Positions 1 to 50,743 of a stretch of 64,000 nt of DNA are shown here, piece by piece (the first letter of the stretch is position 1; every line of letters begins with the position of its first letter). This DNA comes from Terriglobia bacterium. GTDB taxonomy: Bacteria > Acidobacteriota > UBA6911. The translations under genes were made by a program, and so were the position numbers. The notes beneath the pieces are model-generated. The model worked only from the letters and a program-made list of their open reading frames with translations, was not told where the DNA came from and made no database searches. The stretch covers positions 1 to 64,000 of the forward strand of contig JAIQGI010000031.1 of NCBI GenBank assembly GCA_020072565.1. Reading direction: 5' to 3'.

Positions 1-210
1 ATGTTCGTTTGAGCATAATCGTGGTCGGTCCGCCCTTCAACAACGGAACAAGGAACCATCTCGAAAAATTGCACTCCCGGCTCTGGACAATGCTGGGGAA
101 TGCTCTGCACCCAAAATCGGGTGCAGACCAACTATAAGGACCGCTTCGATCTTCCCGCCGAAATCAAGGCCCTGTTGGACAAAAAACAGGGATTTCAGAA
201 TGAGCATTGA
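1..210. other. Unassigned window edge
   Basis: No gene can be supported. A short plus-strand open stretch closes with TGA at 208-210 and could be the tail of a decayed gene, but I do not recognise it. It abuts the M56 peptidase remnant on the opposite strand, so a deletion junction probably lies near 210-243. Confidence 0.4.
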
Positions 211-646: not shown

Positions 647-775
647 AGTCTATTTTCGAGGCAGGAACCGAATCGAAAACCGCAAGTCAGGGAGAAATTC
701 CCTGATTTGCACTCTCCGCATGGGTGGATGAATCACGAAAGCCTTGGCTGGCTTGGCCCCGCCGTTTCACGCGGT

Positions 776-791
776 TGGCACGGCCGTTGCA
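776..791 (+). promoter_or_regulatory. rpoN-dependent promoter: Consensus sigma-54 (-24/-12) promoter
   Basis: The bases read TGGCACG, then four bases, then TTGCA. This is an exact match to the sigma-54 consensus, with GG at 777-778 and GC at 789-790 in the required 10-base spacing. It points rightward toward the glycine-zipper remnant and the 66-residue protein. An NtrC-type activator with a GAFTGA loop is encoded about 1.3 kb downstream. No upstream activator palindrome was identified. Confidence 0.6.
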
Positions 792-840
792 TGGGTATGG
801 CCAGGAGCGCGTGCCGCTGCATAGGCGGCATTATCGGCAT

Positions 841-1158
841 TTAGATGTTTTTCTGAAGATCACATTGGACGCCATCCAGGATTCGAGTGGGAGCTGGGAC
901 CGCGTCAGCACCACCAAGATCTCGGTTGTGAGTCAAAGCCATGAGAAACAAAACGGCGCCCTCATCGGGGGCGGCGCAGCGGTGGGAGCCGTCATTGGAG
1001 CGATCGCGGGCGGCGGCAAGGGTGCTGCAATCGGCGCGGCATCCGGGGCTGATGCCGGAACGGCTGGGGCCTATGCTGCCGGCAGGAAGAATGCAGCCTT
1101 TTCTGCGGAAAAGGTGCTGAAATTCCGGACCACCAGCGAAATTGCGCCGAATCAATAG
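841..1158 (+). pseudogene. Glycine-zipper protein, probable N-terminally degraded
   Basis: The frame holds a glycine zipper ([20 protein letters not shown]) continuing into alternating Gly/Ala and then a short tail with KVLKFRTTSEI. This is the usual ending of acidobacterial glycine-zipper envelope proteins. Upstream of about 940 the translation does not look like a signal peptide or the beta-rich N-terminal domain these proteins normally carry, and no ribosome site precedes a convincing start. The open frame formally extends back to 724, but that part lies across the sigma-54 promoter. A short functional product cannot be excluded. Confidence 0.5.
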
Positions 1159-1562
1159 GGTTCGCGCCCCGCCCGCCGGCGACCGCGGTTGGCCCGGGGG
1201 GACCAATCTTACATCGGTGAGTGGGGCGCTCCATTTTGGCCTGCCGGGATTCGGGCCCGGCGAGTCTTTTAGCCCGCCCGGAGTTATTTCCGGGTGCCGG
1301 CCGGCGCTGGAGCGCGGCACCGGCCCAACGCAGCGGAGCCTCAACTCCGCCCGTATCGCAAATATTGTTGTTTGTTCAGGCTTATAAGTGCAGCTCGGGT
1401 CAGGAATGCATTGCATGTCTGCCAGCGAAGGCACAGCAAATTCTGCAATACCATCCACGATCAGATTCGCATCACCGCTCGACCGCTCGCCCATCTGCCT
1501 GGAAATGGAAAGGTCTAAGTCCGCAATACCTGTAACTGTGAAGTAATGAAAGGAGCAGCAGG
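1159..1562. other. Gene-free stretch
   Basis: Reading both strands gives only short overlapping frames without recognisable domains. The last 15 bases carry a good ribosome site for the next gene. No terminator with a T-run and no RNA gene were seen. Confidence 0.5.
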
Positions 1563-1763
1563 ATGGCAACGGCAACGAGAATCCAATTGGTTTCACCTCT
1601 CCGGGTCACTCAAGCCAAGGTCGATTATCAGCAAAGATGCCGCTGTGGGCACTACCGATACGAGCACCATCCGTCATTCGGTTGTATGCAATGGGACGAA
1701 AGACGCCAGAAAGGGTGGTGCGATTGCGACGGCTTCGCCGTCCGAAAGATGTTTGCCTACTAA
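1563..1763 (+). CDS. Small Cys/His-rich putative zinc-binding protein
   Basis: This 66-residue protein has an AAAGGAG ribosome site seven bases before ATG, which supports it as a real gene. After about 20 variable residues it has CRCGHYRYEHH, then a Cys about 12 residues on, then WCDCDGF. The spacing C-x-C-G-H...H...C...C-x-C suggests one compact zinc-binding unit. Similar short C-x-C-G-H modules occur alone or at protein ends in many bacteria, with no established function that I know. It lies alone, downstream of the sigma-54 promoter region and upstream of the NtrC-type regulator, with about 330 bases to the latter. Zinc binding is inferred from residue pattern only. Confidence 0.65.
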   Translation: MATATRIQLVSPLRVTQAKVDYQQRCRCGHYRYEHHPSFGCMQWDERRQKGWCDCDGFAVRKMFAY

Positions 1764-2096
1764 GAGATCGTGACGTCCCCCTGTGCCCCGGATCGTGTCC
1801 GCACAATCAGGGGAGCGGGGGGACATCCAAATTTGTAGAGCGGGGAAATTTTCCCGCAAATTGACCTTCTCCCGCACTCGGCTCACGGGTATACTAGGCA
1901 TTCACAGGGGGGCTTGCGATCACACATGCCCGACTCGGAGCCATGAGACCTCAAAAAGCACCCGCCAGAACACTGCAGCAGAAACCTGATTCCCTGACGC
2001 CCATGCTGGCGTCTGCAAATCCATGGCCGAACGGAGAATTCGCGTGACAGCCTGCGCTGGCGTGATGTTTCCTGCAACTGAATACAGGTAGTCGGC
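1764..2096. other. Gene-free stretch upstream of the NtrC-type regulator
   Basis: No gene is supported. A TATACT hexamer at 1890-1895 could be a -10 box, but the nearest good -35 (TTGACC at 1861) is 23 bases away, too far for a standard sigma-70 promoter. The ribosome site of the following gene is weak. Confidence 0.35.
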
Positions 2097-3455
2097 ATGA
2101 TCAACCGTAAGACGAAGATAATGGTGGTGGATGACGAAGAGGCCATGAGAGAAGTCCTGGAGATGCGTCTGCAGGGATGGGGCTTCGACGTGCGCAGCGC
2201 CTGCGACGGCCTCGAGGCTCAGGATTTGGCGCTGAGCTACGATCCCGACATTATTATCTCTGATGTGGTGATGCCGGAGCTTTCGGGACTGGACCTGCTG
2301 CGCTCCCTCAAGGCGGATCGTGCCGACCGTCCGGTCGTGCTGGTGACCGCGCAGGGCAGCATCGACCTGGCGGTAGAAGCCATGAAACAGGGTGCGCAGG
2401 ACTTCGTCACAAAGCCTCTGGATTATGGCAAATTACGGGCCATCCTGCAGGTTGCGGAGAATGACCTGGAACTCCGACGCAAATCCCAGCGCCTCCTTTC
2501 CCAGCTGGATCAGGGCGGCTTCGGCAATTTCGTCGGCAGCAGCAAAGCCATGCGCGAAGTCTACAGTCTCATCCAGAGCCTGAGTTCTACGGATGCGTCC
2601 GTCATCATCACCGGGGAGAGCGGCACCGGCAAAGAGCTCGCGGCACGCACGATTCATCAGATGAGCAGCCGCTCGACGGGACCGTTCATCGCCGTGAACG
2701 CCGCGGCGATTCCGGAGAACCTCATGGAGAGTGAAATTCTCGGCCATGAGAAAGGCGCTTTTACCGGAGCCATCGGATTGCGCGCGGGCTGCTTCGAGTT
2801 GGCGAACCGGGGAACGTTGTTTCTGGACGAAATCGCGGAAATGCCCCTGGCGCTCCAACCCAAGCTGCTGCGTGTGATCGAGGATCGCCGGGTGCGCCGT
2901 GTGGGCGGCAGCCACGAGTTTTCCGTCGACGTGCGCGTGATCGCCGCCACCAACAAGCATCCCTGGGCTGCTGTGGAAGGCGGCCGGCTGCGCGAGGATT
3001 TGTACTATCGGCTCAATGTTTTCACCATCGCGCTGCCCCAGCTGCGCGAGCGCAAGGGGGACATTGCGTTGCTGGCACATTACTTCATGCGCGAGTTCAA
3101 CCGGAAACATGATACCAGGGTCGAAGGGCTGCGCGAGGAGGCGGTCGAGCTGCTCAAAGCCTACCCATGGCCTGGCAACGTGCGGGAGTTGAAGAATGTC
3201 ATGGAGCGGGCCGTCATCCTGGCGCGCGGCAAGTGGATCGAGAGCAGTCATCTTCCTGCGTATGTCGTGACGCCTCACGCCGGCTCCGGCGCGAAGATCG
3301 TGCTTCCCATCGGCGTCACGGCCGCTGAGGCCGAGAAGGAGCTGATCCTGAAGACCCTGGAGAACACAGGCCAGAACAAGGCGGAGGCAGCACGTCAGCT
3401 GGGCATCGACGTGAAGACCATCCGCAACAAGCTCAAGTTTTATGGGCTCGAGTAG
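2097..3455 (+). CDS. Sigma-54-dependent response regulator (NtrC family)
   Basis: This 452-residue protein has the full three-part NtrC layout. A receiver domain spans about residues 1-120 with acidic pocket DD at 12-13 and phospho-acceptor Asp56 (SDVVMP). A central AAA+ ATPase has Walker A GESGTGKE at 173-180 and the sigma-54-contacting GAFTGA loop at 220-225, followed by Walker B LFLDE. A Fis-type helix-turn-helix lies at the C-terminus (NKAEAARQLGIDVKTIRNKL). It should bind upstream sites as an oligomer and open sigma-54 promoters after phosphorylation. The cognate kinase gene follows after 45 bases. Together with the lipoprotein further on, the set resembles GlrR/GlrK/QseG. The consensus sigma-54 site at 776-791 is a candidate target. 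Confidence 0.93.
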   Translation: MINRKTKIMVVDDEEAMREVLEMRLQGWGFDVRSACDGLEAQDLALSYDPDIIISDVVMPELSGLDLLRSLKADRADRPVVLVTAQGSIDLAVEAMKQGAQDFVTKPLDYGKLRAILQVAENDLELRRKSQRLLSQLDQGGFGNFVGSSKAMREVYSLIQSLSSTDASVIITGESGTGKELAARTIHQMSSRSTGPFIAVNAAAIPENLMESEILGHEKGAFTGAIGLRAGCFELANRGTLFLDEIAEMPLALQPKLLRVIEDRRVRRVGGSHEFSVDVRVIAATNKHPWAAVEGGRLREDLYYRLNVFTIALPQLRERKGDIALLAHYFMREFNRKHDTRVEGLREEAVELLKAYPWPGNVRELKNVMERAVILARGKWIESSHLPAYVVTPHAGSGAKIVLPIGVTAAEAEKELILKTLENTGQNKAEAARQLGIDVKTIRNKLKFYGLE

Positions 3456-3500
3456 CGCACCGGAGATCTCAGATCCCGGCAGAAACGCTGGCGTCCGATA

Positions 3501-5006
3501 ATGAAGATATCCACAAAGATCATTTCGGGTTACGGGATTCTCATCACCCTGATGGCGGGACTGCTGGGCTACCAGGTCTTCACCATTCACCGGATGCAGA
3601 AGATCATCAAGAATATTAAGGAAGTCAACTTCGACGCCGCCTATAACGCGCTGGAAATGAGACGCGACATCGATCTGGTGGAGGAGTTTACGAAAAAGTC
3701 GTTCGCCTCGGATGATCCGGGCTACCGGGACCGGCTCCAGGAATATTGCACCAACTTCGAGACCGACCTGGATAATTCAAATTCCGCGAGGCTTTTCCGT
3801 GCCTGGTCGACCTTTACAACGGAGCTCTCGCGCCAGCAGCTTGCACTGCAATCCCAGGAAACTCTGGGCGTGCCCGGTGTCCTGGTCGATCAGCTGGAGC
3901 AGTTGAAAAACGAGATCCGCAGCGCCTACCAGGAGGCCATGAACGGGATCAACGCCGAAGTCAGCGTCTTCCTGCGCACCAGCAGATTGGCCGAAACCAT
4001 TTCCTGGATCGTGGCGGCGGTCGCGCTGCTGTTGAGCGCCCTGGTCTCCCTGCTGATCGTCCAGTCCATCTCGGCGCCGCTGAAGCAGCTCACGCAAGGC
4101 ACTCGTGCGATCACGGAAGGAAAATTCTTCTACCGTCTGGACACGACCCGGCGCGACGAGTTCGGGCAGCTCGCCAAGGATTTCAACACCATGACCCACC
4201 GCCTGAACGAGCTTGATCAGATGAAAAAGGACTTCGTGGCGCACGTATCCCACGAGCTGAAAGTGCCGTTGGCGTCCATGCAGGAAACGATCCAGCTTCT
4301 GCTCGAGCAGCTCCCCGGCCCGCTGGGCGACAAACAGCGGCGCCTGCTTGAACTCAACCTCGCGAGCGGGCAGCGGCTCTCCGCCATGATCGGCAACCTC
4401 CTCGATCTCTCGCGCATGGAAGCGGGAGTGCTGGAGTACGAACTGAAAAGCAACGATCTGGCCGGTCTGGCCCGGACTGCGGCAGCAGAGCTGCAGCCTG
4501 TTGCGGGCGAAAGGGATCTGACACTGGAACTTGAAGTCCCCGAACAACCCCTGATGGTAGAATGTGACGGGGATCGGATCCTGCAGATCATCAGGAATCT
4601 GCTGGGCAATGCAGTCAAGTTTTCCCCGAGGGGCAAAGCGATCCGCGTGCGCGTGGCGCGGGCGCCTCAAATTCCGGCTGGAATGCCGGAGTTCTGGCGC
4701 GGGAAAGTCCTATTCCCTGCCGACGGGAAGGAATTCGCGCTGGTGACCGTCGCGGATTCCGGCCCGGGCGTGCCCGATCAGCACAAGAAAAAGATCTTCG
4801 AGAAGTTTCATCAAGTAAAGCAGGGGAAGAAGATACCGGGTCAGGGTGCAGGCCTCGGCTTGGCGATCTCCCGCACCATCGCCGAGGCGCACCGCGGTGC
4901 GCTCTGGGTCGAAGACAATCCTGAGGGGGGCAGCATTTTCTATCTTATGATTCCCCCGGGGGAAAGCGGCGGCGAAGTTACGTACCGGGCATCATCACCG
5001 ATCTGA
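3501..5006 (+). CDS. Membrane sensor histidine kinase with HAMP domain
   Basis: This 501-residue kinase has an N-terminal membrane helix (about 8-28), a periplasmic helical sensor part, a second helix (about 168-192), a HAMP linker, a HisKA dimerisation domain with phospho-acceptor His251 in HVSHELK, and a C-terminal ATPase domain with N-box (NLLGNAVKF), DSGPGV and GLGLAIS boxes. The all-helical sensor region and lack of PAS domains match GlrK/QseE-like kinases. It follows the NtrC-type regulator and precedes a lipoprotein gene by 28 bases, so the three are probably one operon. By analogy with GlrK it may sense envelope state; the signal itself is not visible. Confidence 0.92.
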   Translation: MKISTKIISGYGILITLMAGLLGYQVFTIHRMQKIIKNIKEVNFDAAYNALEMRRDIDLVEEFTKKSFASDDPGYRDRLQEYCTNFETDLDNSNSARLFRAWSTFTTELSRQQLALQSQETLGVPGVLVDQLEQLKNEIRSAYQEAMNGINAEVSVFLRTSRLAETISWIVAAVALLLSALVSLLIVQSISAPLKQLTQGTRAITEGKFFYRLDTTRRDEFGQLAKDFNTMTHRLNELDQMKKDFVAHVSHELKVPLASMQETIQLLLEQLPGPLGDKQRRLLELNLASGQRLSAMIGNLLDLSRMEAGVLEYELKSNDLAGLARTAAAELQPVAGERDLTLELEVPEQPLMVECDGDRILQIIRNLLGNAVKFSPRGKAIRVRVARAPQIPAGMPEFWRGKVLFPADGKEFALVTVADSGPGVPDQHKKKIFEKFHQVKQGKKIPGQGAGLGLAISRTIAEAHRGALWVEDNPEGGSIFYLMIPPGESGGEVTYRASSPI

Positions 5007-5034
5007 GAATTACGGAATGGTCTGAGCTGAGCGG

Positions 5035-5640
5035 ATGAAAACGAAGAGTCTGGCCCTGTCAATCCTGGCAATTTCCATGTGGGTATCCGCTTGCCACAAG
5101 AAACCGGTAGGTCCGCTTGCTACTCCTCCTCCGGTGTTGCAGCCGGTGCCGGTTTCCCCGCCGCCGGTCCCGGTGCCGGCGACCTGGCCCGAGCTGCCGC
5201 TGCCGCCTTCACGGCTTCCCGCTCCACCCGAACCGCCACTCCCAAGGAGCTTCCGCGATGGAGAGGCAAGTTTCCAGAGCGGCAAGTATGCGGAAGCGAT
5301 CCGTTTCTATGAAAGATATCTCCGGGAAGATCCCGTCATCCAGTATAAGGACGTAGCCATGTTCAGGCTGGGGATATTGTACACGCTCTCATGCTCGTCT
5401 CCCGAGTGCCGAGCCAAGTCGCTGGAGAAGTCCGAAGAGCAGTTCAAGCGCCTCGTCTCCCAGTTTCCGCGAAGCCCTTACAGCGCGGAAGCCCGGTTCA
5501 TCCTCAGCTTGCAGACGGAAATCGAAAAGATGAAAACAGAGGCCAAGACGCGGGAAGAAAAGATTAAGAAACTCACGGACGAACTCGATCGCCTGAAAAA
5601 AATCGACCTCGAACGCCAACCATCGCGGATTAAGAAATAA
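5035..5640 (+). CDS. QseG-like TPR lipoprotein with C-terminal coiled coil
   Basis: This 201-residue protein begins with a lipoprotein signal (hydrophobic stretch ending WVSAC, probable lipidated Cys20). A Pro-rich linker (about 25-72) follows, then two TPR-like helices around FQSGKYAEAIRFYERYL with a second repeat, and a charged C-terminal coiled coil (about 160-200). In enterobacteria the outer-membrane lipoprotein QseG is encoded with GlrK and GlrR and stimulates the kinase. Here the lipoprotein lies third, after regulator and kinase. Sequence similarity to QseG is not provable by eye, so the link rests on lipobox, coiled coil, size and gene neighbours. Confidence 0.72.
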   Translation: MKTKSLALSILAISMWVSACHKKPVGPLATPPPVLQPVPVSPPPVPVPATWPELPLPPSRLPAPPEPPLPRSFRDGEASFQSGKYAEAIRFYERYLREDPVIQYKDVAMFRLGILYTLSCSSPECRAKSLEKSEEQFKRLVSQFPRSPYSAEARFILSLQTEIEKMKTEAKTREEKIKKLTDELDRLKKIDLERQPSRIKK

Positions 5641-5711
5641 TCGCTGACCGGGAATCTCTCCAGGCAGGCGCGCCACTGCATAGATTTGATGGGGATATGG
5701 GCGGGACGAAG

Positions 5712-5996
5712 TCAGGCCGACTTTCCGAGCAGTTCCTCCGCAGCCATTGAGCCGCCCTGCCGCGCACGATGCGGCTTAAGCTCCGGAAAAAGCTCTTCGT
5801 CCGCCGATTTGTCAAACAACTCCTGCGCCGCCCGGGCTTCCCCATCAAAAGCGGCGTTCTGCCCCATCGCGGCACAGAGGCCCCGATTTACGCCCCGCGC
5901 CGGCCGCAGTTCCCTGATCGCGTCGATGAGAACAATGATGAGCAGGCCCGCCAGCCATCCCAGTATTTCCCAAGTTGTGATACGCCCATCCAGCAT
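5712..5996 (-). CDS. Small single-helix membrane protein, unknown function
   Basis: This 94-residue protein has a ribosome site AGGGGAG four bases before its ATG, supporting the minus-strand frame over the overlapping plus-strand frames. One membrane helix lies at residues 9-27 (WEILGWLAGLLIIVLIDAI), followed by a basic stretch and a soluble, Ala/Glu-rich tail. It converges with the lipoprotein gene. No family was recognised. The frame also overlaps other open frames, so translation is likely but not certain. Confidence 0.5.
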   Translation of the reverse strand: MLDGRITTWEILGWLAGLLIIVLIDAIRELRPARGVNRGLCAAMGQNAAFDGEARAAQELFDKSADEELFPELKPHRARQGGSMAAEELLGKSA

Positions 5997-6275
5997 GGTG
6001 CTCCCCTGCTGAAATCAAGTCCGCATTTGCACCCTGAGAGGCAGGTTCTGCGTCAGTTCTTAACCCGTCGGAGTCTCAGGATAGTTGTGCCCCGGCTGCG
6101 GGGACGACCCCAATCAACAAAGCAAACACTGTGCCGGAAGGGTCCCGATAGCCTAATCTGCTTGAATGCAGTCAATTAGTTGAATCTGAGGAGCGCGGGG
6201 TCGATAGAGGCCAGGGTTCCGAGCGGGAGATTTTCCCTGAAAATTCGAGGAATGAGGCCACGGGCGATATCCAAA

Positions 6276-6929
6276 TCAGGATTCGAGAGAGGTGAGTCCT
6301 TCGCGGATTGCATACTTGGTAAGCTCGGCGACGCTGTGGATGTTTGATTTTTCCATGATTTTCTGACGGTGCGCTTCGACGGTCTTGACGCTCAGTTCCA
6401 GGGAATAGGCAATCTCCTTGGTGGTCTTTCCTTCGGCCATGAGCTGAAGCACCTCCCTCTCCCTGGCAGTCAGCACGGAAAAGACGGAAGCCTCCGCCAT
6501 GGGAAGTTTGCTCAAATAGTCGTTGAGCACGACGTGAGTGATGTGCGGGCTCAGGTAGATCTGGTCGGCAGCCACAGTATGGATGGCATTGGCAAGTTCC
6601 TCGAAGGCACATTCCTTGAGGAGATAGCCCGAAGCGCCTACCTTGAATACTTCTTTGACAAACCGGCTGTCTGAATGCATTGACAATGTGATGATCTTCA
6701 CTCGGGGGGTGTCGGCCACCACTTGCCTGGCGGCCTCTATGCCGTTGAGGTCCGGCATGCTGATATCCATGATCACAACGTCGGGCAATAGCTCCTTGAC
6801 GAGGCGCACGGCGGTTCTGCCGTCGGCTGCTTCGGCCACGACTTCCATGTCCGGCTGCTTCTCGATCAAAGCGCGCAAGCCGTCCCGCACAATTTTGTGA
6901 TCGTCCGCCAGGAGAATCTTGATACTCAT
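6276..6929 (-). CDS. NarL/FixJ-family response regulator
   Basis: This 217-residue protein has a receiver domain (about 1-120) with DD at 9-10, phospho-acceptor Asp in VVIMDISMP and Lys near 105 (LLKECAFEE). It ends with a LuxR-type DNA-binding domain (LTAREREVLQLMAEGKTTKEI, with the recognition helix near VKTVEAHRQKIMEK). The ribosome site GGGAGGG lies six bases before ATG. The start overlaps the stop of a truncated histidine kinase by four bases (ATGA), so it once formed a coupled two-component pair. The kinase is now only a C-terminal remnant, which leaves this regulator an orphan unless another kinase serves it. Confidence 0.92.
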   Translation of the reverse strand: MSIKILLADDHKIVRDGLRALIEKQPDMEVVAEAADGRTAVRLVKELLPDVVIMDISMPDLNGIEAARQVVADTPRVKIITLSMHSDSRFVKEVFKVGASGYLLKECAFEELANAIHTVAADQIYLSPHITHVVLNDYLSKLPMAEASVFSVLTAREREVLQLMAEGKTTKEIAYSLELSVKTVEAHRQKIMEKSNIHSVAELTKYAIREGLTSLES

Positions 6930-7135
6930 TTAGATCCCTCCCTTGCTGAAAATTCTTTTTGCCTGAGCAGCGCGACCAGCGTCGCGCTGGTTCCGCTGCC
7001 GGACTTTGAGGCAACCGGGAGCCGGCCACCGAGACCGTGCAATCCCTCGCGGATACTGAAGAGGCCGAAACCGCCGGCTCGACCCGGCCGACTGCTGCTG
7101 ATATCGAATCCTACACCGTCATCCACCACATTCAC
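6926..7135 (-). pseudogene. NarX/DegS-type histidine kinase, C-terminal remnant
   Basis: The frame retains only the last part of the ATPase domain: DDGVGFD (G1 box), GGFGLFSIREGLHGLGGRL (G2 box region with the LGGRL motif of HisKA_3 kinases) and GSGTSATLVALL. A few more residues of the same frame (QDGEILVNV) read through upstream to about 7160, then similarity is lost. No HisKA_3 dimerisation domain, phospho-acceptor His or sensor part is present, so it cannot work as a kinase. It overlaps the regulator start by four bases. Truncation rather than frameshift is likely because upstream frames hold no kinase motif. Confidence 0.8.
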
Positions 7136-40269: not shown

Positions 40270-42987
40270 ATGGAAGCCACAGCGGAATTGACGACATACA
40301 ATGCGCGCTTTGAACAGATCGTGCGGCGCATGCCTGATCGGATTGCGGTTCGTCTCAAGACTCCGGCTGGATATCGCCAGATCACATACGGTGAGTTGCA
40401 CCGGCAGGTGCGGGGCGTTGCCCTCGCCCTCCTGGCTCACGGCCTGCAGCGACAGGCTCGGGCAGCCATCCTTTCCGAGAACAGGCCGGAATGGGTCGTG
40501 GCCTACCTGGGCATCTATATGGCGGGCGGAAGTGTCGTTCCCCTGGATCCTCAGATCTCTCCTGAAGAATGGCGCCGCTTGTTGGACGATTCTGAGACGC
40601 AGGCAGTTTTTGTGAGCGGGCTTTTGCTGCCGAAGCTCCAGGAAGCTCTGCAGGATTCCCCCCTCCGCGATCGGATCATATGTTTTGATCCTGTCGGCTC
40701 CGGCGAGAGCACGCGCTGCCTTGCCGACATGATTGAAGCCGGACAGGGTCTGGTCCCGCCTCCCGCGTTGCCAGAAACCCGTCTCTCTGATGTCGTCGTC
40801 ATCATCTACACCTCGGGGACCACGGGGAAGCCCAAGGGGGTCATGCTTAGCCAGGAAAACGTCGTCAGCGAGATTACGGCAGCGTTTCAGGCCATCCGCG
40901 GCATTGACGAAAGAGATGTTTTTCTCTGTCTCCTGCCACTGCAGCACGTGTTCGCGTCCGTCGTGAGTTTCCTGATTCCCCTGTACGTGGGAGCGCAGGT
41001 GGTCTTTGCCGACACCTTGAAGCGCTCCGAAATCCTGGCGGCTCTTCAGGAGGCGGGGATTTCCGTCCTGGCAACCGTGCCGCAGTTCTTTTACCTGTTT
41101 CACGGGCGCATCGAGGAGGAGCTTGCGCACAAGGGGCGGCTTGGGCGCAAGCTGTTTCGCGGTTTGCTGAGGTTCAACCGGTTCTGCATCAACCGTTTCC
41201 AGCTCAACTTGGGCAGGCTGCTCTTCGGCCGCATCCATCGTAACTTCGGCGCCAGACTCAGGCTGTTCGTCAGCGGCGGATCGGCCTTTGACCCCAAAGT
41301 GGCGCAGGAATTCTATGATCTCGGTTTTACGATCCTTCAGGGTTACGGGCTCACGGAGACTACCGGAGCAGCTGCAGTCACACGCGTCGAGCGCAACATC
41401 GTCGGCTCCGTCGGCCCGGCATTACCGGGAACGGAAATCACGATCCTCGATCCGGGACAAGGCGGCGTCGGCGAAGTGGCGATTCGCGGTCCGATTGTGA
41501 TGAAGGGCTATTACAGAAATGCCCAAGGGACAGCGGGAGTGATGCGCGACGGGTGGTTCCTGTCTGGGGACCTGGGGTGGATGGATGAGCAGGGCAACCT
41601 TTTCATCACTGGAAGAAAAAAGGAGGTCATCGTCCTGCCCAACGGCAAGAATATCTATCCGGATGAGGTGGAAGCGCACTATGCGCAATGCCCCTACATA
41701 AAGGAAATTGCAGTTCTGGGCATAGCCGAACCGGAGCGGAGCGGCGCCGAGCGACTCCACGCCGTCGTCGTTCCCGATTTTGATGCGTTGAAAGCCAGGA
41801 GGATCGCCAATGCCCGCGAGATCCTGCGCGATGAAATCGCCCGGCTGTCACATCAACTGCCTCAGTACAAGCGGCTCATGAGCTACCAGATTCAGAAGGA
41901 ACCATTGCCCTGCACGACGACCCATAAGATCAAGAGACTCGAGCTCAAGCGGATGATCGAGAGTGGTGAACTGAGGGAAGACGAGACCGCCGCCGCCGCC
42001 GAGGCGGATTCAACTGAAGACCGTGAATTGCTGGAGTCTGCCGTCGGTCAGGAGGTGATATCCACTCTGCGTGAGACCTATCGCCGGGATTCCCCTGTCG
42101 AGCTCGATATGAATCTCGAGTTGGACCTCGGATTCGACTCCATGGAACGGGTGGAGCTTCTGGCCAGCTTGGAGCAATCGCTTGGCCTGAAGCTTCCTGA
42201 GAGCTTCGGTGCGGAAATCTACACCGTGCGGGACCTGATCCGCGGCCTGCAGCAGCCGACGGGCGCCACTGCCGCCGCCAGCGCACTCCGGCAGAGCTGG
42301 GGAAGAATCCTCTCTCCAGAATCCTTGGGGCAGGAAGAAAGCATACAATCGCGTTTTTCCGGCACCGCGCTCGCTCTATTCAGATTTGCAGGAATCCGGA
42401 TGGTCTATCTGATCTTCAAGGTCTTTTTTCGCCTGGAGGCGGCGGGGCTGGAAAACCTGCCTCGAGAGGGGCCCTTCCTGATCTGCCCCAATCACCAGAG
42501 CTACATCGATCCGTTGATAGTGCTGGCTCCCTTGCCTTATCGCCTTGTCAAGCAGATCTTCTTCGTCGGCGCCGCAGACTTTTTCAGCAGTCCGTTGATG
42601 AAGCTGCTGGCCCGGGTGGCAAACATCTTCCCCGTCGATCCGGACGCACACCTGCTGCGCGCGATGAAGATCGGGGCCTATGGCTTGCGCAGCGGGCGCA
42701 TCCTCTGCATTTTTCCGGAGGGGGCGCGCTCCTTCGACGGCGGGCTTGGACTATTCAAGAAAGGGGCTGCGATCCTGGCGCGGGAGATTGGTGTGGTCAT
42801 GGTTCCAGTGGCAATTCGCGGCGCCCATGAGGTGTGGGCGCGCGATAGCCGCCGTATTCATCTGCACAAACTGAAGGTCATGTTTGGGGAGCCCTTGAGG
42901 GCCTGCCAGGGGGAAGAATCCGCCCCGTATCAGGCGGACACAATTCAGCTCCGGCAGACAGTTGCCCGCCTGATCGAGCTCAGCTGA
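40270..42987 (+). CDS. aas: Acyl-ACP synthetase / ACP / PlsC acyltransferase fusion (Aas-like)
   Basis: This 905-residue protein joins three activities. Residues about 1-580 are an AMP-forming ligase with IIYTSGTTGKPKG, GYGLTETTG and the C-terminal GRKKEVIVLPNGKN. Residues about 590-670 are an acyl carrier domain whose phosphopantetheine Ser624 lies in DLGFDSMERVE. Residues about 690-900 are a PlsC acyltransferase with NHQSYID (741-747), FPEGARS and PVAIRG. It would activate a fatty acid, hold it on its own carrier domain and place it on lysophospholipid or a related acceptor. The built-in carrier domain makes it unlike enterobacterial Aas, which lacks it. Confidence 0.9.
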   Translation: MEATAELTTYNARFEQIVRRMPDRIAVRLKTPAGYRQITYGELHRQVRGVALALLAHGLQRQARAAILSENRPEWVVAYLGIYMAGGSVVPLDPQISPEEWRRLLDDSETQAVFVSGLLLPKLQEALQDSPLRDRIICFDPVGSGESTRCLADMIEAGQGLVPPPALPETRLSDVVVIIYTSGTTGKPKGVMLSQENVVSEITAAFQAIRGIDERDVFLCLLPLQHVFASVVSFLIPLYVGAQVVFADTLKRSEILAALQEAGISVLATVPQFFYLFHGRIEEELAHKGRLGRKLFRGLLRFNRFCINRFQLNLGRLLFGRIHRNFGARLRLFVSGGSAFDPKVAQEFYDLGFTILQGYGLTETTGAAAVTRVERNIVGSVGPALPGTEITILDPGQGGVGEVAIRGPIVMKGYYRNAQGTAGVMRDGWFLSGDLGWMDEQGNLFITGRKKEVIVLPNGKNIYPDEVEAHYAQCPYIKEIAVLGIAEPERSGAERLHAVVVPDFDALKARRIANAREILRDEIARLSHQLPQYKRLMSYQIQKEPLPCTTTHKIKRLELKRMIESGELREDETAAAAEADSTEDRELLESAVGQEVISTLRETYRRDSPVELDMNLELDLGFDSMERVELLASLEQSLGLKLPESFGAEIYTVRDLIRGLQQPTGATAAASALRQSWGRILSPESLGQEESIQSRFSGTALALFRFAGIRMVYLIFKVFFRLEAAGLENLPREGPFLICPNHQSYIDPLIVLAPLPYRLVKQIFFVGAADFFSSPLMKLLARVANIFPVDPDAHLLRAMKIGAYGLRSGRILCIFPEGARSFDGGLGLFKKGAAILAREIGVVMVPVAIRGAHEVWARDSRRIHLHKLKVMFGEPLRACQGEESAPYQADTIQLRQTVARLIELS

Positions 42988-43316: not shown

Positions 43317-44408
43317 CTAATGTCCGAAGTGCACGAAGGCCAGTACAAATCCCGTGATGAAGATATTCAGTATAGACAGAGGCAGAAGGATCTTCCACCC
43401 CAAATGCATCAGCTGGTCATAGCGGAAACGGGGGAGAGTCCAGCGAATGAGGAGGAGAAACCAGCAAAAGAACACCACCTTGAGCGCAAATGCCACAATC
43501 TGCATGAGTGTCACCGCTAAGGCGGAACACAACACGACCGATCCCCAGGGAAAGTGAAATCCGTCCGCCAGCAAGTAAGGAACCTGCCAGCCGCCGCAGA
43601 AAAACGTCGTCAAGAGAGCAGCGATGAGGATGGTCTCCACGAAATCGGTCATGAAAAAGGCACCGAACTTCATGCTGCTGTATTCGAGGAAGTAGCCGAT
43701 GATTTCCGATTCCCCTTCCGGCAGATCAAATGGCACCCTTTTGGTTTCCGCGAAGCCGGCGACAAGAAAGAGCAGGAAGCCAAGGGGCTGAAGAAAAATC
43801 CCCCACCTCGGCAACCATCCCCACAGCAGGGCACCTTGCGCCCGGTTCAATTCTGCGAGGTCCAGCGTCCCGAAGATCATGAGCAGCCCCACAAGCGTCG
43901 CGCCCATGGTGATTTCATAGCTGATCATCTGGCTCGAAGCGCGCAGGCCCCCCAAAAATGCAAACTTGTTGTTGGAGGAGAATCCCGCGAGAAAGGTGCC
44001 GAAAATCCCCATCGACATCATGGCGAAGATGAACAGCAGTCCTATGTTGAACGGAAAGATCTGCAGCTCAATGGTTCTTCCGCCAATCTGAATCGAATTG
44101 CCGAAAGGGATGGCCGCAAAGCTCATCAAGGCGAAAAACAGGGCCACGATCGGAGCGGCCGTATGCAGCAGCTTGTCGCCTCCGGGCGGTACGTAGTCCT
44201 CTTTGAAGAACATCTTCAGAGCGTCCGCAAGGATATGGGGCAAGCCGAACGCGCGGATGCCCAGAATGGGTGCCCGGTTGGCGCCCAGGCGATCCTGCAT
44301 GACAGCCGACTGTTTCCGCTCCATCCAGGTCAACAGCGAGGTGAGCGTCAGCACGCATGTGAGAAAAAAGACGGCTTTGGCCAGGATGATAAGAACATCA
44401 AGCCACAT
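43317..44408 (-). CDS. nuoH: NADH-quinone oxidoreductase subunit H
   Basis: This 363-residue, eight-helix protein lies in the membrane arm next to the quinone site. It has the conserved loop segments SAVMQDRLGANRAPI, DALKMFFKED and ETKRVPFDLPEGESE. The ATG at 44408 starts eight bases after the nuoG stop; the open frame runs far upstream inside nuoG without family similarity. It closes a four-gene cluster nuoA-C-G-H. Membrane-arm subunits L, M and N are not in the window. Confidence 0.93.
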   Translation of the reverse strand: MWLDVLIILAKAVFFLTCVLTLTSLLTWMERKQSAVMQDRLGANRAPILGIRAFGLPHILADALKMFFKEDYVPPGGDKLLHTAAPIVALFFALMSFAAIPFGNSIQIGGRTIELQIFPFNIGLLFIFAMMSMGIFGTFLAGFSSNNKFAFLGGLRASSQMISYEITMGATLVGLLMIFGTLDLAELNRAQGALLWGWLPRWGIFLQPLGFLLFLVAGFAETKRVPFDLPEGESEIIGYFLEYSSMKFGAFFMTDFVETILIAALLTTFFCGGWQVPYLLADGFHFPWGSVVLCSALAVTLMQIVAFALKVVFFCWFLLLIRWTLPRFRYDQLMHLGWKILLPLSILNIFITGFVLAFVHFGH

Positions 44409-44416
44409 ACAGCCAT

Positions 44417-46036
44417 TTACCCCAACTTGAGCATTTGACCCGATTCGCCTACGGTCGCGTAGTCCATTCCCGCAAAAGCCAGAAACCGGGTTCCAATCTC
44501 CTGGAACACCTGCTCCGCGGATACGACGGGCAGCGCCACTCCCAGCGCGGCCGCAAGCTGCGCAAAGATTTCCAGGTCCGGCAGAGACTGCTCCAGCGGT
44601 GGAATTGCGGCATGGATGCGCTGGACCCGCCCCTGGAAATTGGTAAACGTCCCGGTCTTTTCGGCATAGAGGGCGCTGGGCAGCTGGACATCTGCCATGC
44701 CGGCCGTAGCGTGCGCGAAGGCACCGTGAAAGGCAACAAAATCCAGGTTTGCCAAGGCATTGCCTGCCAGATTGGCGTCGTGGCCCCGGGTCAGGTCGTG
44801 ATGGCAGATGTAGAGGAAACGAACTTGGCCTTCGGCGCAAGCCTGGAGCAATTTGTCGCTTCCGGCGCCGGCAAAACCCATTACCTCCGCACCGAACGCA
44901 TTCGGATTCTTATCGGCTGTAACCAGGAAGCCGTCCGAGTAGCCGACCTCGCGCTGGGGAACCCGATACTCGAAGTTCTTCACATTCAAGCCGGTACGGA
45001 AAAGCCGGTCCATCTGGAACAGCTCTTCATTGGTCATCTGCGGCGAGGCGAGCACAGCCACGGCCTGGGGACCGAACTTTTCCACCGTACGCTTTAGGGC
45101 AACCGCGGTGCGCGCGACCGCCTCGTCCCAGCCCGCTGTTCGATGAACTCCTTCCTGCTTCAACGAAGGAACCCGGAGCCGCTCCGGGGCGTCAATCGCG
45201 TGGTACGAGTACCGGCCTTCGTCGCACATCCAGTAGCGGTTGACCTCAGGGTTGAACCGGGGCTTGAGGCGATGAACCCGTCGGCTGTGATAGCGTGGGT
45301 TGAAACGTTCGTTGAAGTGGATCTCGATGTTGCAGCCACGGCTGCACCCGGGGCAGATGGAGGAAGCGCTGCCCAAAAACCAGACTCGGCATTGAAAACG
45401 GAAATCGCGATCGGTCAAAGCACCAACAGGACAGAGATCCACGACATTGCCGGAGTAGGGATTGTCCAGCTCCGCCCCCGGAAATATGGCAATCTCGCTC
45501 AGATGCCCGCGCTCATGCACCGCCAGTTCCGCACTCTTGGAGATCTCCTGGGTAAAGCGGACGCACCGGGTACAGAGAATGCAGCGTTCCTGATCGAGGA
45601 TCACGTGCGGCCCGATCGGCAGAGCTTTCCTGCGCTTTTTCTTGTTTTCATTGAAGCGCGGATCATAGCAGCCATGATCCATGTAATAGTTCTGCAGCTC
45701 GCACTCTCCCGACTGGTCGCACACCGGACAGTCCAGCGGGTGATTGAGAAGCAGAAATTCCAGGACCGATTGACGGTTGCGAAGCACCTCGGGCGTGCGC
45801 GTCCGGACAACCATCCCCCGGGCGATCGGGGTTGCGCACGAGGGTTGAAGCTTAGGGATCTTTTCGACTTCCACCAGACACATCCGGCAACTGCCGACGA
45901 TCGAAAGGCCGGGATGGTAACAGTAATGCGGGATCTCGATGCCGATCGATCTCGCGGCCTCCAGAACGGTCGTTCCTGTGGCGGCCTGCACGGTCTGCCC
46001 GTCAATTGTGAATGTAACCAACTCTTTATCGGACAC
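44417..46036 (-). CDS. nuoG: NADH-quinone oxidoreductase subunit G, short form
   Basis: This 539-residue protein carries the iron-sulfur clusters of the peripheral arm. The 2Fe-2S site is in HYCYHPGLSIVGSCRMC with Cys in PSCATP; the His/Cys cluster site lies in HPLDCPVCDQSGECELQ; the 4Fe-4S site is CILCTRC with later DLCPVGAL; a further CPGCSRGC is also present. The C-terminal molybdopterin-like part is much shorter than the about 900-residue enterobacterial protein. GTG 46036, five bases after GAGG, is preferred to the TTG at 46060. It follows nuoC by seven bases. Confidence 0.9.
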   Translation of the reverse strand: MSDKELVTFTIDGQTVQAATGTTVLEAARSIGIEIPHYCYHPGLSIVGSCRMCLVEVEKIPKLQPSCATPIARGMVVRTRTPEVLRNRQSVLEFLLLNHPLDCPVCDQSGECELQNYYMDHGCYDPRFNENKKKRRKALPIGPHVILDQERCILCTRCVRFTQEISKSAELAVHERGHLSEIAIFPGAELDNPYSGNVVDLCPVGALTDRDFRFQCRVWFLGSASSICPGCSRGCNIEIHFNERFNPRYHSRRVHRLKPRFNPEVNRYWMCDEGRYSYHAIDAPERLRVPSLKQEGVHRTAGWDEAVARTAVALKRTVEKFGPQAVAVLASPQMTNEELFQMDRLFRTGLNVKNFEYRVPQREVGYSDGFLVTADKNPNAFGAEVMGFAGAGSDKLLQACAEGQVRFLYICHHDLTRGHDANLAGNALANLDFVAFHGAFAHATAGMADVQLPSALYAEKTGTFTNFQGRVQRIHAAIPPLEQSLPDLEIFAQLAAALGVALPVVSAEQVFQEIGTRFLAFAGMDYATVGESGQMLKLG

Positions 46037-46043
46037 CGATACC

Positions 46044-46556
46044 TCAGTTTTTCGGTCCAATCAACGGCTGCCGCCGGCGGATCGGATAATCCTTGCGCAG
46101 CGGATGTCCTTCGAATTCCGGGTACAGGAGAATGCGCTTCAGTTCCGGGTGCCCCGTGAACTCGATCCCGAACATGTCCCAGACCTCCCTCTCCAACCAG
46201 TTCGCGCTCCCCCAAAGCGAGGTCGCGGAATCAAGCGTTGGCTTATCGCCCTGCAGTCTCACCTTGATGCGCAGCCGCTGGTTGAAAGGCAAGGAAAGCA
46301 GGTGGTAGACAACCTCAAATCTGGGCTCGCGCCCCAAGTAATCGACTGCCGTGACATCCAGGAGAACGTTAAAGAGCAGCCGCGTGTCCTGCTTCAAGAA
46401 CTCCAGGATTTTTCGCAGCGCGGCGGGCGAAACGACGGCCGTGGCCTCATCATGCGACGGGGAAGCTTCGCAAATCTCCTGAGGGAAATTCTCCGCCAGC
46501 AGCGTCAACGGCCGATGCAGGTCGTTCGAGTTATCAGCCGGATCCTCTACTCCCAT
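46044..46556 (-). CDS. nuoC: NADH-quinone oxidoreductase subunit C
   Basis: This 170-residue protein has the 30-kDa signature (DPGH-like ANWLEREVWDMFGIEFTGHP and RILLYPEFEGHPLRKDYP). It helps form the quinone-binding arm together with NuoD, which is not encoded here. ATG 46556, preceded by GGGAG, overlaps the nuoA end; ATG 46577 is also possible. The order nuoA then nuoC without nuoB between them is unusual. Confidence 0.9.
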   Translation of the reverse strand: MGVEDPADNSNDLHRPLTLLAENFPQEICEASPSHDEATAVVSPAALRKILEFLKQDTRLLFNVLLDVTAVDYLGREPRFEVVYHLLSLPFNQRLRIKVRLQGDKPTLDSATSLWGSANWLEREVWDMFGIEFTGHPELKRILLYPEFEGHPLRKDYPIRRRQPLIGPKN

Positions 46557-46900
46557 TCGAGCGCTCCCGTTTTCCATGCATACACAAAGCCGACACCGAC
46601 AACCAGAAAAAAGATGAACATCTCCATGAATCCGAAAATCCCCAGGCTGCGGAATACTACGGCCCAGGGAAACAGGAAAGCGAGTTCGACATCAAACAGA
46701 ATAAAGAGCAGCGCCATGAGGTAGAAACGGACGGGCACCGGCCTGTGGCCCATGCCTTCCGACGGCATTCCACATTCGAAAGGCTCGTCCTTAATCCGGG
46801 AACGTTTCTTCGGGCCGAGAAAGGTCGAGGCGGCCACAAAGAGTGCGGCAATTCCGCCTACCAGCAGCGCCATCACAAGCACAGGCAAAAGGTCATTCAT
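46547..46900 (-). CDS. nuoA: NADH-quinone oxidoreductase subunit A
   Basis: This 117-residue, three-helix protein has the family's conserved loop EPFECGMPSEGMGHRPVPVR and FYLMALLFILFDVELAFLFP. It sits near the junction of the two arms. ATG 46900 fits the family start; the longer frame to 47008 has no similarity. It is the first gene of the nuoA-C-G-H cluster and overlaps nuoC by 10 bases. Confidence 0.93.
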   Translation of the reverse strand: MNDLLPVLVMALLVGGIAALFVAASTFLGPKKRSRIKDEPFECGMPSEGMGHRPVPVRFYLMALLFILFDVELAFLFPWAVVFRSLGIFGFMEMFIFFLVVGVGFVYAWKTGALEWE

Positions 46901-47421
46901 GGGGGGCACAGCCTCACATCCTGGGGAATGCGAAACCCGAAATGTACACTCTGGCCTGTCGAAAATCAATTCAAAAAAAGCGCAAAAGTGAGCGCTCCTC
47001 TTCAACATAAGGCTCTATAGTGCAACAGCTTAGCCGCTGATACGGGCTCGTTGTCCGCCATGAGGACAACGCACAAGGCCGCGTGCCCGGTTCAAACATC
47101 GCGACGAGCGGGATCCCTTCAGGGTTCGGCGGCAGGGCGGAAAAGCCACGATGCAAGACCGGCTCTGAGAAGCTCAACGCCTGCATTCAGGCTATTTTTG
47201 CTTGCCTTTCCGCGAAACCGGCGCCATTCTCCCCTGGAAGCAACAGCTGAGCGGGCGACGTGAAAACTCAAGGAAATGCAAACCAGCCCCTGACCATTCA
47301 CGCACATTTGTCACCTGACGCGCAAATTCTGTTTTGCAAGAATTCCTTCACGGTATAGGATGGCGGATCATATTCACTACGATATCCAAGGGGCGCAAGT
47401 ACCTGGTTGGCTGGAGTCGAG
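46901..47421. other. Divergent promoter region of the nuo cluster and the ceramide operon
   Basis: About 520 bases with no supported gene. It must hold the leftward nuo promoter and the rightward promoter of the serine palmitoyltransferase operon. TTGCAA with TATAGG near 47334-47360 is a possible but sub-optimally spaced pair (14 bases). GGAG lies five bases before the ATG of the next gene. Confidence 0.4.
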
Positions 47422-48645
47422 ATGAAGAACTCTAATTGGATTAAAGAACGAATTCTGAATTACAAAGACGCCGAAAGACTCATGGCTTTGGGTTTGTATC
47501 AGTTTTTCAGGCCGATCCAATCCGAGCAGGACACGGAAGTCACGGTGGACGGCCGCAAATTGCTGATGTTCGGATCGAACAGTTACATGGGCCTCACCAA
47601 TCACCCTAAGGTCAAGGAGGCTGCAGCCCAGGCGCTGCACAAGTACGGGACGGCATGTGCGGGATCGCGCTTCCTGAACGGCACCCTTGATATTCATATC
47701 GAGTGTGAAGAAAAGATCGCCGCATTCGTGGGGAAAGAGGCGGCGCTGCTCTACTCCACAGGCTTTCAGGTGAACCAGGGGGTAATATCCGCCTTGGTGG
47801 GGCACGGCGATTTCGTCCTGCTCGACAAGCTGGATCATGCGAGCATCGTCGACGGCGCCCGCCTGAGCTTCGGCAAGACCGTCCGATTCAGGCACAACGA
47901 TATGAAGGGGCTCGAGGAGGTATTGAAGCCGATCCCTTACGAACGGGGAAAGTTGATCGTGGCGGACGGGGTCTTCAGCATGGATGGAGACATCGTAGAT
48001 CTGCCCACGATGGTGGAGCTGGCCGAGAAGTACAATGCCATGATCATGATCGACGACGCTCACGCGATCGGCGTGATCGGGGAGGGAGGAAGGGGCACTT
48101 CCTCTCATTTCGGACTGACCGACAAGGTGGAGTTGATCATGGGCACCTTCAGCAAATCGCTCGCGTCGCAGGGCGGTTTCGTTGCCTCTGATAACGCGAC
48201 CATCCACTATCTCAAGCACAACTCGAGGTCGCTCATATTCAGCGCCAGCCCGACCCCCGCCAACGTGGCGGCGGTTATGGCCGCCCTCGACATCATCGAA
48301 TCCGAGCCGGAGCGCCTCCAGAGACTCTGGGACAACACCCACCGTATGTCGGGAAGCCTCAAAGGAATGGGTTATAACCTCGGCCAATCGGTGACACCCA
48401 TTCTGCCCGTCATAGTCGGGGACGACCTGAAATGCCTTCGAATGTCGCTCGCGCTGCAGGAGGAGGGTATTTTCGTAAATCCAGTCGTCTACCCGGGGGT
48501 CGAGGTTGGCCAGGCGCTCTTGCGTGTAAGCCTCATGGCCACTCATTCATTTGAGCAGATTGACTGCGCGCTTGACAAGTTCGAGCGTGTCGGTAAACGC
48601 TTGGGGGTCATCACCTGTGGAATCGGGTGCTATGATCATTCGTGA
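47422..48645 (+). CDS. spt: Serine palmitoyltransferase / alpha-oxoamine synthase
   Basis: This 407-residue PLP enzyme has the alpha-oxoamine synthase plan: GSNSYMGLTNHP near the start, LDKLDHASIVDGARL (His stacking on PLP), IDDAHAIGVIGEGGRG and the PLP Lys in GTFSKSLASQGGF. The family includes BioF, KBL, HemA and serine palmitoyltransferase. Here the neighbours decide: an acyltransferase overlapping by 14 bases and an NAD-dependent epimerase-like gene follow, the three functions known for bacterial ceramide synthesis. It would condense serine with an acyl thioester to 3-ketosphinganine. GGAG precedes ATG 47422. Substrate is inferred. Confidence 0.85.
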   Translation: MKNSNWIKERILNYKDAERLMALGLYQFFRPIQSEQDTEVTVDGRKLLMFGSNSYMGLTNHPKVKEAAAQALHKYGTACAGSRFLNGTLDIHIECEEKIAAFVGKEAALLYSTGFQVNQGVISALVGHGDFVLLDKLDHASIVDGARLSFGKTVRFRHNDMKGLEEVLKPIPYERGKLIVADGVFSMDGDIVDLPTMVELAEKYNAMIMIDDAHAIGVIGEGGRGTSSHFGLTDKVELIMGTFSKSLASQGGFVASDNATIHYLKHNSRSLIFSASPTPANVAAVMAALDIIESEPERLQRLWDNTHRMSGSLKGMGYNLGQSVTPILPVIVGDDLKCLRMSLALQEEGIFVNPVVYPGVEVGQALLRVSLMATHSFEQIDCALDKFERVGKRLGVITCGIGCYDHS

Positions 48646-49756
48646 GGCCGTCACCAGGAATGACATAGACCGATTTATCAGGCTCCCGTGGAAGATTTAC
48701 CGGAATGACAAGAACTGGGTACCGCCGCTCATTCTTGAGCGCAGGGACTTCCTGAACCCTGATAAGAATCCCTTCTTCGAACATGCGGACGTGAAGCTCT
48801 ACCTCGCCTCTGATGAAGCCGGCGATGAAGTGGGCCGCATCGCGGCCGTCATCAATTTCAATCACATCCGGACTCACCACGAAAATGCCGGATTTTTCGG
48901 CCTCTTTGAATGTGCCGATGATCAGACCGTTGCCAACCGCCTGTTCGATGCAGCCGGGAACTTCCTCCGCTCCCAGGGCATGGAGACAATGCGGGGCCCC
49001 GAAAACCTGTGCGTAAACGACGATATCGGCCTTCTCATCGAGGGATTCGGCACGCCTGCCATGATCCTGATGCCCCACAACCCGCCTTACTATGAGCGGC
49101 TGGTCGAGGGCTACGGCTTCAAGAAGGCCATGGATCTTTTCGCCTATTACATTGAGTTCAAGCAGGAACGCATACCGGATGAGGTCCTGCGGTGGGCCGA
49201 AATCAACCGGCGCCGGCACGAGTTCACCATCCGCTCCCTGCGCATGAACGACTTTGCCGCCGATCTGGAGCGGATCCGCACCATCTACACCTCCGCCTGG
49301 GAGGACAACTGGGGAGCGGTGGCCATGACGGCGCGCGAATTCGATCATCTGGCCAGGAGTCTCAAACAGATGGTCGATCCTGATCTGTGCCTGATTGCCG
49401 AGGTCAATGGGGAAGCGGTCGGTTTCTCACTCGCCTTGCCGGACATTAACCAGATTCTGATCCGGCTTAACGGCAGGCTTTTCCCCTTCGGAATTTTCAG
49501 GATCCTCCACCAGAAAGGCAGGATCGATGCGCTGCGCTTAATAACCATGGGAGTGCTCAAGAAATTCCGGCACCGGGGGATTGACACCTGTTTCTACTAC
49601 GAAACTTATCAGAGGGCGCGGGCCAGAGGGATCTGGCGGGGAGAGATGTCCTGGATCCTGGAGAACAATGCCATCATGAACCGGATCATGGAGAATATCG
49701 GATTTAAAGTCTACAAGAAGTATCGTTTGTATGATTTTTCTCTCAGCGCGTCATAG
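48632..49756 (+). CDS. bcerS: GNAT-like N-acyltransferase, probable bacterial ceramide synthase
   Basis: This 374-residue protein starts inside the 3' end of the spt-like gene (14-base overlap) and ends three bases before the next ATG. It has two related halves: an N-terminal part with FIRLPWKIYRNDKNWVPPL and a C-terminal GNAT-type part with DLCLIAEVNGEAVGFSLAL and FRHRGIDTCFYYE. In Caulobacter, the ceramide synthase is a bacterial N-acyltransferase of this kind, unlike the eukaryotic enzyme. It would attach a fatty acyl group to the long-chain base nitrogen. The assignment rests on fold type plus operon partners. Confidence 0.78.
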   Translation: MIIREAVTRNDIDRFIRLPWKIYRNDKNWVPPLILERRDFLNPDKNPFFEHADVKLYLASDEAGDEVGRIAAVINFNHIRTHHENAGFFGLFECADDQTVANRLFDAAGNFLRSQGMETMRGPENLCVNDDIGLLIEGFGTPAMILMPHNPPYYERLVEGYGFKKAMDLFAYYIEFKQERIPDEVLRWAEINRRRHEFTIRSLRMNDFAADLERIRTIYTSAWEDNWGAVAMTAREFDHLARSLKQMVDPDLCLIAEVNGEAVGFSLALPDINQILIRLNGRLFPFGIFRILHQKGRIDALRLITMGVLKKFRHRGIDTCFYYETYQRARARGIWRGEMSWILENNAIMNRIMENIGFKVYKKYRLYDFSLSAS

Positions 49757-49759
49757 TTG

Positions 49760-50743
49760 ATGCGAAAAGTTCTCGTAACCGGAGCTTCCGGATTTATCGG
49801 CGGACATGTAGTGCATGCCCTGCGGTCACGAGGCATTGCCGTCCGCTGCTTGGTAAGGCAAAGCAGCCGCCTGGATTTCATCAGGCCCCTGGACGTTGAG
49901 TTGGCCTCGGGAGACGTTACGGAGGCGGAGACTCTGGCGTCGGCAATCGAAGGCGTCGACGCAGTTGTGCACTGTGCGGGACTCACCAAGGCCCCCTCGC
50001 GAGCCGGCTATTTCCGGGTCAACGAAGGCGGGTCCAGGAATCTTTACACCGCGTGCAGGCGCCGCAAGGACAAGATCCTGAAAATCGTGCACCTCAGCAG
50101 CCTGGCAGCGCTCGGCCCGTCAACCGATGGCAGGCCCATAACCGAAGACTCCATCCCTCATCCGGTCAGCGATTACGGCGAGAGCAAGCTTGCCGCCCAG
50201 CGAGTCGCTGAGTCCTTTGTGGGCGATCTTCCCGTGAGCATTGTCGTGCCGCCCGCGGTCTACGGGCCGCGCGACCTGGACTTCTATGTCTACTTCAGGT
50301 TTGTAAGGCGAGGGATCATTCCGCTCATCGGGATGCGCGCGCACCATCTCTCCCTGATCTATGTGCAGGATCTCGCTGACGCCGTCGCTGCGGTTCTTCT
50401 CAGCGAACACACCGTGGGAAGGTCCTATCTGGTGGATGACGGATGCATTCAAACCTGGACCAGTGTGGCCGACGCAATTGCCTGCGCCCTGGTCAGGAAG
50501 CCGAAACGCGTGCGCATGCCGGTTGCGGCAGCCCGGAGCTTGGGCGCAATCGGGGACATCTGTGCGCGACTCACGGGGAAAGTCTGGCTGATCAACTCGC
50601 AGAAGGTTCGGGAGTTCCTGCAGACATCCTGGACCTGCTCCTCACAACGAATCCGCGATGAATTGGGCTTCCGCCCGCAATATTCCCTGGAAAGAGGAAT
50701 CCGGGAGACGCTTTCCTGGTACCAGGAGAACAAATGGCTCTGA
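49760..50743 (+). CDS. cerR: NAD-dependent epimerase/dehydratase, probable ceramide reductase
   Basis: This 327-residue short-chain dehydrogenase has the Rossmann motif GASGFIGG near the N-terminus, LSSLAALG and the catalytic YGESK (Tyr, Lys). Sugar-binding C-terminal features are ordinary for extended SDR proteins, which act on nucleotide sugars in many cases. As third gene after the spt-like and acyltransferase genes, it matches the reductase of the bacterial ceramide pathway (reduction of the 3-oxo group). The ATG at 49760 is three bases after the previous stop. Confidence 0.8.
   Translation: MRKVLVTGASGFIGGHVVHALRSRGIAVRCLVRQSSRLDFIRPLDVELASGDVTEAETLASAIEGVDAVVHCAGLTKAPSRAGYFRVNEGGSRNLYTACRRRKDKILKIVHLSSLAALGPSTDGRPITEDSIPHPVSDYGESKLAAQRVAESFVGDLPVSIVVPPAVYGPRDLDFYVYFRFVRRGIIPLIGMRAHHLSLIYVQDLADAVAAVLLSEHTVGRSYLVDDGCIQTWTSVADAIACALVRKPKRVRMPVAAARSLGAIGDICARLTGKVWLINSQKVREFLQTSWTCSSQRIRDELGFRPQYSLERGIRETLSWYQENKWL

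Follow-up and report, generated by a model that had tools for sequence, protein, structure and literature searches.

Bacterial ceramide synthesis has been described as the work of three enzyme families, encoded in Caulobacter crescentus by spt, bcerS and cerR (CC_1162, CC_1154 and CC_1164), and these genes have been reported to be "often found clustered" (PMC11334938). In Caulobacter, bcerS lies eight genes away from the others in another operon, and Spt works together with AcpR and AasR (PMC11324152, PMC9386255). CC_1154 is the N-acyltransferase needed for dihydroceramide, and its counterparts are yghO (ECD_02850) and the Sphingomonas aca genes (PMC9386255). Acylation has been proposed to precede reduction in Caulobacter, although the order of these last two steps is still open in the literature (PMC11087976, PMC11324152). 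In E. coli of the BL21 type, the genes form a spt-acpR-cerR-aasR cluster with a divergent yghO on the other strand and lptFG as neighbours. In Bacteroidota, the three genes have been described as not close together (PMC11334938), and Parabacteroides spt is found beside neither bcerS nor cerR.

The locus described here comes from a Terriglobia bacterium of the phylum Acidobacteriota and was analysed within a 64,000-nucleotide stretch of DNA (the window). It encodes the same three enzyme families as Caulobacter, but all in one unit and without acpR or aasR. E. coli BL21-type strains have homologs of all three proteins (SPT 41%, YghO 36% and CerR about 29-30% identical), but their cluster differs in strand and neighbours, and their SPT is of the ACP-dependent rhodobacterial type. 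Homology and gene order make it highly probable that the locus is a single transcription unit for a de novo bacterial ceramide pathway, and production of ceramide-type lipids by this uncultured organism is very probable. The gene set itself is known; the locus adds a well-formed example to it and is not a new system.

Layout and setting of the locus

The trio resides on contig C31 of a 7.46 Mb genome that is 98% complete (Table 1). A first-pass annotation had described a tightly packed three-gene unit, and both the ORFs and the spacing hold: spt and bcerS overlap by exactly 14 bases, and three bases separate the bcerS stop codon from the ATG of cerR. Co-transcription is inferred from this overlap and spacing. 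Third-position GC content is the same in the trio (72-74%) as in the flanking genes (71-75%), which makes the three look like ordinary coding genes of the host genome.

Table 1. Positions of the trio, its surroundings and related genes elsewhere. Coordinates refer to the window unless a locus is given.
Feature	Position	Strand	Description
Ceramide trio	47422-50743	+	Three ORFs
spt	47422-48645	+	Predicted serine palmitoyltransferase, 407 aa, Bacteroidota/Sphingobacterium type
bcerS	48632-49756	+	Predicted ceramide synthase-type N-acyltransferase, 374 aa, tandem GNAT fold; stop TAG at 49754-49756
cerR	49757/49760-50743	+	Predicted NAD(P)-dependent extended SDR, ceramide reductase type, 328/327 aa; start TTG 49757 or ATG 49760
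nuoA/spt intergenic region (divergent)	47009-47421		Presumed site of the operon promoter
Inverted repeat	47049-47071		Perfect, 8+8, CGTTGTCC-N7-GGACAACG, in the nuoA/spt spacer
nuoA, nuoC, nuoG, nuoH	43317-47008	-	Upstream neighbours of spt
Acyl ligase fusion	40270-42987	+	905 aa; AMP-dependent acyl ligase, acyl carrier protein and PlsC-type acyltransferase domains
Second bCerS-family gene	L181:8741-9856 (G000:C10, about 94740-95855)		Same genome as the trio
ACP-fused SPT-like enzyme	L182:7522-9030		Genome G010
ACP-fused SPT-like enzyme	L184:3612-5186		Genome G012
ACP-fused SPT-like enzyme	L185:2949-4493		Genome G013

The promoter of the operon is presumed to lie in the divergent nuoA/spt spacer, where no sigma-70-like match was found. 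This spacer also holds a perfect inverted repeat, whose exact sequence occurs once in the window. Both flanks are occupied by genes on the opposite strand, a gene for a TPR protein downstream of cerR and four nuo genes upstream of spt; the latter set, which is without nuoB and nuoD, is an unusual and incomplete complex I gene group. Further upstream, a gene on the same strand as the trio encodes a fusion of acyl ligase, acyl carrier protein and acyltransferase domains. It was considered as the acyl supplier of Spt and rejected, since the opposite-strand nuo genes intervene and its relatives near other trios are few and weak (24-31%).

Gene 1, a predicted serine palmitoyltransferase

Among PDB sequences, the best match of Spt is the Sphingobacterium multivorum SPT (493 bits), as against 326 bits for the best BioF/KBL and 301 bits for E. 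coli KBL. Its best NCBIfam family is the Bacteroidota SPT model SerpalmtaseCFB (NF047600), with 605.7 bits, under the cut-off of 640. The active site, for which residue roles were taken from the Sphingobacterium enzyme (PMC10196870), is nearly identical to that of the S. multivorum and Parabacteroides SPT, which belong to the same clade. Spt is identical at N52, S53, Y54, A79, G80, S81, F83, H138, S185, D210, A212, H213, T241, S243, K244 and R367 (Sphingobacterium numbering), and thus keeps the PLP lysine, the histidine that stacks on PLP, the aspartate to PLP N1 and the serine-binding residues (among those present, in the numbering of the window protein, are K245, H139, D211, H214, N53, S82, T242 and S244). 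Relative to the Sphingobacterium enzyme, Spt has F in place of Y27, Q in place of L249, I in place of M271 and L in place of F338. The SPT motif GTFSKS is conserved, where E. coli KBL has GTLGKA and the Thermus BioF/KBL has ATLSKA; these enzymes are unlike Spt at positions 80, 81, 242 and 245, the first two being S and V in E. coli KBL, and A and V in the Thermus protein. A maximum-likelihood tree was built from 83 rows, one of which (own_C12_AOS, probably in a wrong frame) was disregarded. It places Spt in a fork (94/91) shared by SPTs of Acidobacteriota and Bacteroidota, the solved one among them; KBL and BioF/KBL lie elsewhere in the tree. Scores, residues and tree together support the predicted identity of gene 1 as a serine palmitoyltransferase of the Bacteroidota/Sphingobacterium type, not a BioF or KBL.

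The same three-step logic could also yield a sphingolipid analogue, either a 1-deoxyceramide made from alanine or a capnine-type sulfonolipid made from cysteate. Related lipids are made by the same families, and in the Black Sea potential SPT-bearing anaerobic bacteria have been associated with abundant 1-deoxyceramides (PMC11334938). However, N52, G80, S81, S243 and H138, with which the Sphingobacterium enzyme holds serine, are all kept, and the score against the cysteate acyltransferase 28eh is 258 bits, far from the 493 bits reached with SPT, which makes such a product very improbable and leaves serine as the predicted substrate.

Gene 2, a bCerS-family N-acyltransferase

No Pfam model reaches its cut-off on bCerS. 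A translated search of plasmid records brought up its relatives, among which are full-length homologs in Rubrobacter (a plasmid gene, 43% identical) and Streptomyces (40%), with E < 1e-50. The likeness of the trio proteins to those of Caulobacter was judged through the published E. coli and Sphingomonas counterparts: the match to E. coli YghO extends over 98% (E about 1e-66), and a Sphingomonas gene is 33% identical over 99% (E 3e-55). In their own genomes, yghO adjoins spt-acpR-cerR-aasR and lptFG, and the Sphingomonas gene clusters with cerR-acpR-spt and lptF-lptG. These comparisons support the assignment of gene 2 to the bCerS (CC_1154/YghO) family of N-acyltransferases, for which N-acylation of a sphingoid base is predicted.

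The AlphaFold model (pLDDT 94.4) has a tandem GNAT fold and matches tandem GNATs with Z 21-25, the best being MAB_4324 (Z 24.9, 303 residues, 3.3 A), with a glucosamine N-acetyltransferase at Z 23.6. Eukaryotic N-myristoyltransferases, which have long acyl-CoA as substrate, come lower in the list (Z 16). Taken alone, the modelled fold reveals no substrate.

Gene 3, a ceramide reductase-type SDR

CerR belongs to the large SDR superfamily. It matches Epimerase in Pfam, and its best NCBIfam match is HpnA (136.6 bits, far under the cut-off of 367.65). The model (pLDDT 96.4) has an extended-SDR fold (best Z 36). Across 31 homologs, the glycine-rich NAD motif and YxxxK (Y140, K144) are invariant, the fixed residues being T8, G9, G12, F13, G15, Y140 and K144, with S114 almost so. 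Since SDRs are many, a best-match test was run in ten trio genomes by ranking all their proteins. In each of the ten, the best match of CerR was the SDR adjacent to SPT/bCerS, mostly with a wide margin over the second protein; the next-best SDR of its own genome reaches only 130 bits. These results support gene 3 as a putative operon-type CerR of the ceramide reductase family.

The sequence of CerR contains no N-terminal signal-like, export-signal or strongly hydrophobic segment. This fits a cytoplasmic reductase without proving one, as the CerR of Caulobacter is periplasmic, yet also without a predicted transmembrane region (PMC11087976).

As Uchendu et al. have proposed that periplasmic CerR, which resembles NDUFA9, may interact with complex I (PMC11087976), the divergent nuo genes alongside the operon might suggest that CerR draws electrons via complex I; the NDUFA9 chain of plant complex I (8e73) is indeed among the fold matches of CerR. 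However, it matches no better than many sugar epimerases, and among 80 related loci only one (L075, with a nuoA-like gene) has nuo genes within 10 kb, the nearest Acidobacteriota trios having none beside them. A functional link is therefore very improbable, and the nuo neighbourhood is treated as chance.

The trio in other genomes

The first-pass annotation had read the unit as a ceramide trio made up of an alpha-oxoamine synthase, a GNAT-like acyltransferase and a reductase, a reading that is now supported for each of the three families: the synthase falls outside the BioF and KBL groups, and the full-length homology of the acyltransferase to YghO and the Sphingomonas protein sets it apart from unrelated GNATs. 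Co-occurrence in related genomes, proposed there as a check, is also strong. The acyltransferase is found in 111 of 396 sampled genomes of the phylum and this SPT type in 77, 74 of which carry both (Fisher P = 6e-48, a value that overstates independence because relatives share descent), and spt and bcerS are adjacent (within 2 kb) in 31 genomes. The association covers many families and phyla. At more than half of the 80 named genome loci with a bCerS relative, spt is directly adjacent; spt-cerS-cerR follow each other on one strand at 13 loci, and cerR is divergent from spt-cerS at 22. Locus L086, which has the order CerS-SPT-CerR, is outside the 13. The recurrence of this adjacency in many unrelated genomes, together with the co-occurrence within the phylum, shows that the trio does not lie together by chance.

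Contiguous trios in the order and strand of the window are found in Acidobacteriota (f23 loci L033 and L162-L164), Myxococcota (Myxococcus), Bacteroidota (Rufibacter, Dyadobacter and Runella), Gemmatimonadota, Rubrobacter and Streptomyces, and also in Nitrospinaceae. Their genes often overlap as they do here, and the window trio differs from them in sequence divergence only. The contiguity that the first-pass annotation had set against the partly separated genes of Caulobacter is thus real, but it is not unusual, the trio being adjacent in many bacteria. It runs counter to a published claim, according to which cerS never shares an operon with spt/cerR. The nearest trio operons are in same-phylum genomes (G059, G251 and G293), whose trio proteins are close to those of Acidobacteria bacterium CG_4_9_14_3_um_filter_49_7 (L033; SPT 88-91%, CerS 87-88%, CerR 76-85%); the window trio is more distant from these f23 relatives (SPT 62-63%, CerS 46-47%, CerR 36-38%).

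A chance grouping of a KBL or BioF with an unrelated GNAT and a sugar epimerase is scarcely credible: all three proteins do come from large families and HpnA is the best NCBIfam match of the SDR, but bit scores, active-site residues and tree rule out a KBL/BioF identity for gene 1, the trio is adjacent and co-occurs over many phyla, and the operon CerR is the best match in all ten genomes ranked.

Two observations concern other hosts. In the cultured Bacteroidota Rufibacter, Dyadobacter and Runella (L078, L089 and L091), spt-cerS-cerR are contiguous, a finding at odds with the idea of a scattered arrangement in Bacteroidota. In E. coli, a plasmid (NZ_MG591698, positions 1-7116; L019) carries a copy of the species' sphingolipid cluster (spt, acpR, cerR, aasR, yghO and lptFG) beside glc genes.

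Proposed pathway

The steps of the proposed pathway were taken from work on Caulobacter and Bacteroidota (PMC11087976, PMC9386255, PMC10196870), and the genes were assigned to them by homology and context. Spt would condense L-serine with a long-chain acyl thioester to 3-ketosphinganine, bCerS would transfer a second acyl chain onto the amine and CerR would reduce the 3-keto group, giving dihydroceramide. Because neither acpR nor aasR adjoins the trio, the acyl donor for Spt is probably acyl-CoA, as in the Sphingobacterium enzyme. The compact trio is also a handy cassette for addressing the disputed order and place of acylation and reduction.

Two SPT types in one family

Members of the same family rely on another SPT than the window genome does. 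The window-type enzyme was found in no other sampled member of the family, and the one sampled congener was also without the acyltransferase. Three family-mates (Table 1) have instead an SPT fused at its N-terminus to an acyl carrier protein domain (PF00550) and encoded convergently with cerS, and at two of these loci (L184 and L185) a fatty acyl-AMP ligase and CerR lie beside it. This fused form is absent from the window genome, and a full-text literature search found no report of an ACP-SPT fusion. Spt groups with the f23 SPTs with moderate support (94/91), and the CerS and CerR trees give no resolution between arrival with SPT and prior presence in the family; joint acquisition of the whole trio from the f23 lineage is for this reason not claimed.

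A more speculative proposal, which we regard as unlikely in its entirety, is (i) that trios of this type, including those of Rubrobacter and Streptomyces, are wholly cytoplasmic, co-produced sets with a cytosolic CerR, which would differ from the compartment-split pathway of Caulobacter, and (ii) that a Bacteroidota-type SPT replaced the ACP-fused SPT of the relatives.

The window genome also has a second bCerS-family gene on contig C10 (Table 1), an orphan without SPT or CerR alongside, whose product is 41% identical to the first.
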